A stretch of DNA of 64,000 nt from Setaria digitata (Eukaryota > Nematoda > Chromadorea > Rhabditida > Setariidae), in the NCBI GenBank assembly GCA_003640385.1, contig RCAB01000091.1, positions 1 through 64,000 on the forward strand. The letters are read 5' to 3'. This document shows, one piece after another, positions 49,777-52,700 of the stretch (position 1 is the stretch's first letter; each line of letters starts with the position of its first letter). The notes under the pieces were generated by a model. The model was not told the DNA's origin. It saw nothing but the letters and a program-made list of their open reading frames with translations, and made no database searches. Position numbers and translations under genes: made by a program.

Positions 49777-52700
49777 ATGTATGGTGCAACACTACAGCAA
49801 CAACAATATTCCATTGTTGAATATGTTGGTTATAATGAAGGTGGAGTGTGTGGTTATTGTCACCGGGAGGAAGGAAGTCCAACGAGCATTGGTATTTATT
49901 CCACTTTTTCTTTCATTCATAGAAGGATTTCAATCACTGATTTAATCTATTTTTTGGAATTTCTTGTATTTGTGATTTTTAATTCAATATCTGATGAGAT
50001 TATGTGAGGCGAAGAGTTTGTTGCAGGACTTATGGGATATCATCTGTCGTGCGAGCACTTTAATCAGCTCTTAGATAGAGGATGTAGCCGGTAATTCGAT
50101 AAGTAAAGCAAAAGTGATATAAATGCTTTGTTAGCCTAAGATTTTGCTGTGTTTTGTTAATGAAAAGTTTTCTGTAAAATTCACTCAAAAGATATGGCTA
50201 TAAAGCAATTCAAGTCACTTCTGCTTTCCACAATTTTTTCCATATATTATCTAAATTTCTGTAGTTTTTACTGAATTCCAGGCTCCGAATTTCAGGAATT
50301 TGGACATTCAGTCTTTCCGTATCGCATTATAACGAATTACTTGATAGAGGGATCAGAAGGTATCATTTTTCAATCTTCATCTCTACATTGCATTTAAGTA
50401 GTGCTTGCTTTTCAGATCTGGAAAGTATTTGTATAAACCGATAATTGCTACTACGTGCTGTCCACAATACACAATCAGGTATCTGTCACTGTCTGTTTGG
50501 TTTCTTCGTTTTATTAGATAATATCATCTTTTTATCTTTCTAGGCATCTGCTGATATGTAGGATTGTATGGTAGAATAGTAAGTGATGTTGGAAAATTTG
50601 TTTTAGACTTGATGCTAATAAGTTCCGCTTGTCAAGAACACAAAAAAGAGTGCTGCGACGAATGAATGATTTTCTCCAGAAAGATATTCGACCAAGAGAG
50701 CGACAACAAAAAGCGAATAATGATGTAGGGGAAAAAATGACTGGGAGCAGTTGTGTCCCATCAAATCTTTGTATTAAAAAAGTGGAAAATAATAAAAAAA
50801 CGCTAAATCATGAACTTCGTGAAAAGGGAATGAAGAGAAAGATCATCAGACGAGAAAAAGCTTTCCGAAAAATGCGTGAGAAAGGTATCAGTGTCGGAGA
50901 GGTTTGAATTTTTTTTTCTTTTATTATTGATTTTGTATAAGTTATGAAATATAAATTTAAAAGATCTGGAGCAGGGATTGTATAATAGAAATCATGAATC
51001 ATTTCAAATATGATGAAGAAATTGGACTGCAGGCGAGATCAAATTAAGAAAGCAGACACTAAGTGAATAGTGATACATTCGGCATGAGAACACATGTTGG
51101 ATTCACCGGTGGTAGTAAATTCAGCATTTTTTTTTAGATCTGAAGGTTTTAGTTTGTCTTTTTAATAATTTTTTAGGCTCAGAGAATACGCCAAGAAAAA
51201 GAGGAAGCTCGGAGAAAGACACTGAAATCATTCATTCTCAAATATGACCCGGAAACCTTCAAGCATAAATTAGAAGTAACTTATATCTTGTTACTTTTCA
51301 GTAATATAATAATTCATGTTTAAGTTTAAAGTCTTGTTTACTCGAACTTTTTCCTTCCTTTGCTTTATTTCAACTTACTGCTGTTTGGAATTCCTTTTTC
51401 CTGCGTTATCAACTTATCGTATAAAGTCTTCGTTTTTTGTTTCTTACAGGTACGTTTAGTTGACCCAAACTCATCCGAATTTTATGAGACTTTCAAGGAA
51501 AGCTTCAAATTATATGAAAAATATCAGACAAACGTTCATCATGATACTCGTTGTACTAGAACAGGTTACCGAAATTTCCTTGCGGATTCACCACTTTTTA
51601 GTGACGAAGGAGAAGAAAATAAGGTATGATATATTTCGTTTTCATAACTCTTCTTTTTATTATTCTGCCATATTGCAAAATTCTCTTCAAATGTCAGCCT
51701 ACACTCAGAGAGAGCATACAAGCTTGCGTTTCTAGACAAAATGGAAAAGGGATGTAATAAAATCATCAGTTGTTTGTAGAGCGTGGCACTGGGTTCATAT
51801 CATCAACAGTACTACCTAGATGGTCGTTTGATAGCCGTTGGTGTCATAGATATATTACCACGCTGCTTATCAGCTAAATATTTATATTATGATCCCGACT
51901 ACGATTTTCTTGCCCTCGGAACATACACTGCTTTGCGGTATATTCATAGATTTCTAGATAGCAAACTTCTAGACCATAATAAAAAGTAAAAAGAAATTAA
52001 GTTCATTCCTGCTGTATTTCATTGAAATAAAGCTGAAGTGTAGTTCGGAAAATACTTAAGAGATAATTTTCTAAACCTAAAATTTTATCCTCCTGATCTG
52101 GCTTCAAAAAAAGAAAAAGAAAAAGTTCCAGAAATCAGATTTTTATTTTGAGAAAAATTTCGGAAAGAAAGGAATATGGATAAGTGCTTTCAATTATTAA
52201 ATCTTATTAAATTGTATACAGTATAAACTCTCAATTAGGAAGAAACTCGGTGACATAAAATATATGAAGCCAAAATTATTTTTCTGAGCCTTTTTTCCGG
52301 GGGGATTTTTAACCCGATTGTGAAATTTTAACCATTAATGAAAGTTTTATGAATTCTTNGCCAAAATTATTTTTCTGAGCCTTTTTTCCGGGGGAATTTT
52401 TAACCCGATTGTGAAATTTTAACCATTAATGAAAGTTTTATGAATTCTTTAATTATGTTTATGTTTTTTCCAATATATTTTCGTGAATTTCAGGGAAATC
52501 GCATTTACCCAAGAGCTTGCGGAAGAGAGACCACTGCTTCATTACTATTATATGGGTTTTTATATTCACTCTTGTCAGAAAATGCGCTATAAAAGCCATT
52601 TTCATCCATCTGATTTACTATGCGATCGTAGTTTCACTTGGGTTCCGTTGGAGAAGTGCTTAGAAGTTATGCAGAGATATGGCGAACGGGTGGAAGCATT

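Follow-up and report, generated by a model that had tools for sequence, protein, structure and literature searches.

In mammalian ATE1, the mutually exclusive exons 7a and 7b lie in the catalytic half of the enzyme. Here, we examine the ate-1 gene of the nematode Setaria digitata, which occupies 49777-52981 on the + strand of contig RCAB01000091.1 (assembly GCA_003640385.1; the stretch analysed, positions 1 to 64,000, is called the window) and whose exons 2A and 2B are alternatives for one position of the gene. Like 7a/7b, they belong to ATE1 and are predicted to be mutually exclusive, but the Setaria gene shows neither a standout duplicate of the mammalian kind nor significant intron pairing. 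Competing RNA structures in human ATE1 appear in a table row and in a reference title of PMC9977717. Mammals have another pair, exons 1A/1B, reported in PMC9884297 to change the sequence adjoining the CxxC motif, as the nematode pair does; 1A/1B affect the extreme N-terminus and the CxxC flank, whereas the nematode pair affects the stretch between CxxC and the CC motif. The original prediction set mammalian ATE1, varying in its catalytic half, against a nematode enzyme varying at the N-terminal domain; mammalian ATE1 also varies near CxxC.

Two further precedents come from nematodes. PMC9741552 includes ATE1, Ate1 and Ate-1 in its list of human, fly and worm gene families that show tandem duplicated exon events, and the C. 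elegans ate-1 event agrees with the Setaria pair in both gene and kind, although the passages of that paper on C. elegans ate-1 give no position, sequence, function, nematode-wide history or loss of Arg and Trp. The listed event is most likely the same pair, because the C. elegans protein has the A form and the C. briggsae model carries both forms. The closest functional parallel is provided by exons 6a/6e of nematode coq-2 (PMC7434440), where, as proposed here for ate-1, a pan-eukaryotic exon and a derived exon with invariant residue changes are mutually exclusive in a worm enzyme; coq-2 is a different enzyme, however, and the function of its exons was demonstrated by exon removal, with nothing comparable found for ate-1. 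Our full-text literature searches, to which subscription papers are mostly inaccessible, gave no title or opening of an abstract that describes the nematode 2A/2B pair, and the exon-switching paper PMC7954323 mentions neither ATE1 nor elegans. As far as these searches reach, the pair is catalogued in C. elegans at the gene level and otherwise uncharacterised.

The Setaria gene has nine exons per transcript, with AG/GT at all internal borders:

49777..49891, + strand: ate-1 exon 1, with the ATG and, as metal ligands, CGYC; its last base is the first of a codon
50027..50090, + strand: ate-1 exon 2A, nematode-specific form; 20 residues plus the Arg junction codon
50296..50359, + strand: ate-1 exon 2B, ordinary animal form; 20 residues plus the Arg junction codon
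50416..50478, + strand: ate-1 exon 3, SGKYLYKP...TCCPQYTI, with the CC metal ligands
50607..50901, + strand: ate-1 exon 4
51177..51275, + strand: ate-1 exon 5
51450..51623, + strand: ate-1 exon 6, where ATE_C begins
51780..51937, + strand: ate-1 exon 7
52494..52763, + strand: ate-1 exon 8
52858..52981, + strand: ate-1 exon 9, with the stop codon

Either isoform is assignable to the arginyl-transfer enzyme family, ATE_N (70.3 bits in isoform A, 78.6 in isoform B; cut-off 27) and ATE_C (143.5 bits in both; cut-off 25) being above cut-off. The architecture of the pair agrees with the original prediction throughout: 2A and 2B are 64 bp each, have equal phases and AG/GT borders, are separated by 205 bp, and lie between CGYC of exon 1 and CC of exon 3, with two cysteines brought in by A. 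Both finish a Gly codon at the 5′ end and open an Arg codon at the 3′ end (CG/A in A, AG/A in B, the stroke marking the junction). Either exon alone yields an intact ATE1 of 453 amino acids, while inclusion of both leads to a stop after 71 residues and omission of both to a stop after 47. The encoded peptides are identical at 9 of 20 residues (BLOSUM62 score 50); 2A and 2B are adjacent exons of equal length and phase with homologous peptides. Among 126 open AG-64nt-GT segments of the same phase on both strands of the window, A is the best match to B and the next scores 9; once the splice-site condition is dropped, the best other open 60-mer of 40,740 scores 30, and none of 5000 dinucleotide shuffles of the intron reaches 50 (maximum 33). 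The similarity between A and B is thus far beyond chance. No intronic duplicate of any other ate-1 exon, catalytic half included, stood out (best scores at most 24), and the DNA of exon A, used as query against the 75.6-Mb genome (976 contigs), matched only itself. We hold it very probable that 2A/2B are a genuine mutually exclusive pair. The S. digitata database model P0001 contains exons 1, 2A, 2B and 4-9 letter for letter but not exon 3; it splices A to B via an upstream acceptor and loses the CC metal ligands together with exon 3. Joining A to B and skipping exon 3 in this way points to annotation trouble.

How widespread is the pair? We searched a protein database three times, listing at most 120 proteins each time, and scanned the 191 proteins fetched, 183 of which contain the anchor motif and 8 of which do not; clustering of the database entries at 90% identity can mask an isoform differing by about 20 residues. 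At the exon-2 position, nematode ATE1s show two kinds of sequence, B-type, with the pattern G-x-W-A-H-x-L...Y...LLDRGWRR-SGKY, and A-type, exemplified by GVIAHFLTCEDFNQMLDIGWNR-SGKY. A-type sequences occur in Spirurina (Setaria, Dracunculus), Tylenchina (Panagrellus, Halicephalobus, Aphelenchoides, Meloidogyne, Strongyloides, Steinernema) and Rhabditina (Haemonchus, Nippostrongylus, Pristionchus, Diploscapter, Caenorhabditis), corresponding to clades III, IV and V, respectively. The search of other nematode ate-1 loci that had been named beforehand as a check turned out positive at the level of protein models, with A-like and B-like sequences across all three clades. The two Plectus sambesii proteins are B-type, and no enoplean nematode is among the matches listed. 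Outside nematodes, no A-type exon appeared among 46 listed matches or among 111 named and 3 unnamed proteins, in searches that list at most 120 proteins and require shared words, which does not prove that such exons are absent there. The pair thus appears to be old and nematode-wide rather than a filarial peculiarity, and the predicted nematode switch in the N-terminal domain stands as a homologous pair, with a range that goes beyond filariae to include C. elegans.

The order of the two exons provides a further line of evidence. A lies upstream of B in 11/11 loci where both were recognised, namely the window and ten gene models (8 by profile scan and 3 by eye); the A parts recognised by eye, in P0033, P0124 and P0127, resemble P0051 and P0123 and fall below the in-frame threshold of 12. 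Misjoined models are informative here because both exons appear in one locus. Two in-frame sites are present in 6 nematode proteins (P0001, P0029, P0038, P0067, P0179, P0181) and, in the same profile scan, in no protein outside nematodes. Five models translate an exon out of frame; three of them have A followed by B (P0036, P0127, P0136), while P0044 has just B and P0137 just A. B-like peptides were recovered by a codon-choice test in P0036, P0044, P0127 and P0136 (scores 35.9-44.4), as were A-like peptides in P0136 and P0137 (38.1 and 33.5), against background maxima of 24.8 and 25.7 in 35,112 windows from 114 non-nematode or unplaced proteins. When copies are sorted by order only, Arg at exon position 20 is absent from 7/7 complete in-frame upstream copies (window, P0029, P0036, P0067, P0124, P0127, P0179) and present in 7/8 in-frame downstream copies, the exception being Steinernema glaseri P0181 (Ile).

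Which of the two is the ordinary enzyme? B-type is the form found in vertebrates, molluscs, arthropods and a nemertean, and in an alignment yeast ATE1 shares the Arg-Arg and Tyr of B-type, but not its Trp. Arg-Arg before SGxYxYK and Tyr-11 are each present in 111/111 named non-nematode animal proteins and Trp at exon position 2 in 109/111, these proteins being mostly vertebrate and therefore not independent. In the 20 A-type segments, Arg-20 occurs in none, Trp-2 in 1, and Phe replaces Tyr-11 in 17; these counts are partly circular, because the A/B labels were given by eye, a problem that affects the check by genomic order to a smaller extent. As a sample of B, 26 segments were selected (24 nematode, 2 non-nematode), one of which, P0181, has Ile instead of Arg-20. 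Six anchored nematode rows were left out of the class counts as misjoined (P0019, P0036, P0044, P0127, P0136, P0137), and outside the 20 A segments stand P0121 (one residue longer), P0122 (a near copy of P0020) and the truncated A of P0038 and of P0033. RRSGK, a marker of our own choosing and no accepted defining feature, marks A as a variant ATE1: isoform B carries the motif and isoform A is without its first Arg. Several clade V A forms have lost the second Arg as well, with Thr (C. elegans, Diploscapter) or Gly (Haemonchus, Nippostrongylus) in its stead. A is a derived nematode form, and B the ordinary animal one. P0123, the C. elegans database protein and representative of a 10-sequence cluster, is A-type and reads GWSTSGRY, Thr standing where the second Arg would be; work taking P0123 as the standard worm enzyme would therefore use the derived isoform. 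PMC9884297 uses C. elegans P90914 among its sequences, the variant being unremarked in its relevant passages.

Do both forms reach messenger RNA (mRNA)? Contigs of 1520-1773 bases encode complete-looking ATE1s of 449-501 residues with 164-270 bases to spare, some with A (P0020, P0026, P0040) and some with B (P0013, P0028). By arithmetic, these contigs would be of RNA origin, because the spare bases are too few for eight introns, each of which has at least 56 bases in Setaria; the same arithmetic does not decide the matter for the P0015 contig, 2346 bases long. In nematodes other than Setaria, A and B alike thus seem to occur in mature mRNA. Past the exon region, P0026 (A) and P0028 (B) share only 85% identity and therefore probably do not come from one species.

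We consider it fairly probable that 2A/2B are ancient tandem-duplicated, mutually exclusive exons giving isozymes with changed acceptor handling. A tandem duplication would have produced the pair before the split of nematode lineages III, IV and V, and an ancient common origin is very probable in itself. Each transcript would include exactly one of the two exons, the choice presumably being set by RNA-binding proteins according to tissue or stage; double inclusion or skipping shifts the frame to an early stop, and such transcripts would presumably be removed by nonsense-mediated decay. Within the metal-binding CxxC...CC "substrate" domain, the swap would exchange one beta strand together with a short helix and the leading Arg of RRSGK, and leave the metal ligands, their spacing and the catalytic GNAT domain unaltered. 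Isoform A would then most likely be an isozyme with altered recognition of, or rate for, acceptor proteins; that the effect falls chiefly on acceptor handling we regard as an even call.

Several observations weigh against this explanation. Among filariae, A was seen in Setaria only, in the clustered database. Divergence was followed in 11 of the 19 A segments other than that of Setaria for exon A, and in 10 further B-type proteins for exon B, the clade placing of P0015 (III) and of P0020, P0026 and P0040 (IV) being by likeness only. Setaria exon A is 60% identical to that of Dracunculus (57% for the rest of the protein) and 60% to that of P0015 (rest 52%), but with five clade IV forms identity is 35-55% (rest 44-51%) and in 2/5 it is below the rest, as it is in 4/4 clade V comparisons (0.25-0.35 vs 0.42-0.51); exon A thus evolves no faster than the rest of the protein in clade III and 3/5 clade IV comparisons, but faster further out. 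Across clades, the mean BLOSUM score of A with A, 29.6, is barely above that of A with B, 26.7, and a leave-one-out test misclassified 2/46 segments, P0041 and P0051 being retained as A despite their misclassification. Each transcript-sized contig has A alone or B alone, and no species among these has both as transcripts. No functional data on any A-type enzyme were found in the literature. As for exclusivity, intron-intron duplex energies are not clearly below those of order-1 Markov resamples (fractions 0.78, 0.10 and 0.49 of 300), and consensus motifs of known splicing factors gave only weak pyrimidine, YGCY and U-rich matches.

Pairing between introns was accordingly rejected as the basis of exclusivity, the energies being within the resample range. 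Steric exclusion is also unlikely, because the A-B intron measures 205 bp and the intron between B and exon 3 of the same gene 56 bp; the splice borders of both exons are ordinary and the A-B intron is long enough for splicing. PMC6830814 names ate-1 as one of the C. elegans genes in which sftb-1 mutants show changes in more than one splicing event, which fits regulated ate-1 splicing and does not name the 2A/2B event.

The alternative that survives best, though we hold it unlikely, is that isoform A is weak or inactive and acts as a brake on isoform B, as a dominant negative or by trapping substrates, with no new specificity. The loss from A of an Arg kept in every named non-nematode ATE1 and, nearly always, of the Trp kept in all but two, together with replacement of the second Arg in several clade V forms, would suit a brake; nevertheless, the catalytic domain is complete and common to both isoforms, and the C. 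elegans database protein is itself A-type.

Less likely still is that A alters the binding of an iron-sulphur ([Fe-S]) cluster or of zinc, and so the response of arginylation to oxygen or stress. PMC9884297 reports that yeast ATE1 contains an oxygen-sensitive [Fe-S] cluster affecting arginylation and that mouse ATE1 has a similar one; PMC10115844 argues for zinc instead, and the identity of the metal is disputed. Exon 2 encodes a strand and a helix placed exactly between the CxxC and CC ligands (the structure search used the A-type model only), and this location, with the two cysteines of Setaria A, speaks for the Fe-S tuning put forward in the original prediction. However, the four metal cysteines (CGYC in exon 1, TCC in exon 3) belong to the flanking exons and are kept, with identical spacing, whichever exon 2 is used. 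Tuning is weakly supported because the extra cysteines of Setaria A are unconserved: Cys at exon position 8 occurs in 6/20 A-type segments and Cys at position 19 in Setaria only (1/20). As general metal ligands, these cysteines were rejected on the same count.

It is very unlikely that independent, convergent tandem duplications took place in different nematode lineages. PMC9741552 does make the case that tandem exon events in vertebrate, arthropod and nematode ATE1 are convergent, and the small margin of A-A over A-B similarity across clades points the same way, but the constant A-then-B order and the like changes at positions 2, 11 and 20 argue for a single origin, as does the higher score of Setaria A against the A of Dracunculus (65), P0015 (62) and Aphelenchoides (55) than against the Setaria B (50); one B, that of Syphacia (53), also scores above 50. 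The reading of exon A as a pseudo-exon or a duplicate in decay, in Setaria at least, is scarcely credible, since, despite the A-B junction and missing exon 3 of P0001 and a Cys where Trp-19 is usual, the exon is open, phase-matched and flanked by splice sites, resembles its Dracunculus counterpart as closely as the remaining protein does, and has A-form equivalents in transcript-sized contigs of other nematodes.

The surroundings of the gene deserve brief mention. A same-strand upstream gene (window 48564-49624) stops 152 bp before the ate-1 ATG at 49777 and matches the N-terminal portion of Elaeophora P0004, a model that fuses a PF10147 (CR6-interacting) protein with ATE1. C. auriculariae P0046 shows this fusion too; Heterorhabditis P0137 is also listed with a PF10147 domain. 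The neighbourhood of the PF10147 gene and ate-1 looks conserved and operon-like. At 52269-52449, an ate-1 intron holds two 90-bp direct copies, 99% identical with a single N between them, perhaps an artefact of assembly gap-filling. Far upstream, a mir-50 microRNA precursor lies on the minus strand at window 1122-1192 (Rfam, 70.4 bits), near minus-strand reading frames that we take to be talin-like.

According to PMC7779560, animals and fungi have no known arginylating enzyme other than ATE1. How the enzyme selects the proteins it modifies is an open question. Because the swap alters one strand-helix unit and removes residues kept elsewhere, the pair would offer a ready-made test of the N-terminal substrate domain. 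C. elegans, whose database protein is the unusual form, provides a laboratory route to such a test. We tentatively suggest, at somewhat less than an even chance, that nematodes may possess, by way of an ancient exon switch, a second kind of arginyltransferase, without residues kept in all other animal ATE1s examined, which would act on different proteins or serve as a built-in brake, and that the C. elegans database ATE1 would be this form.
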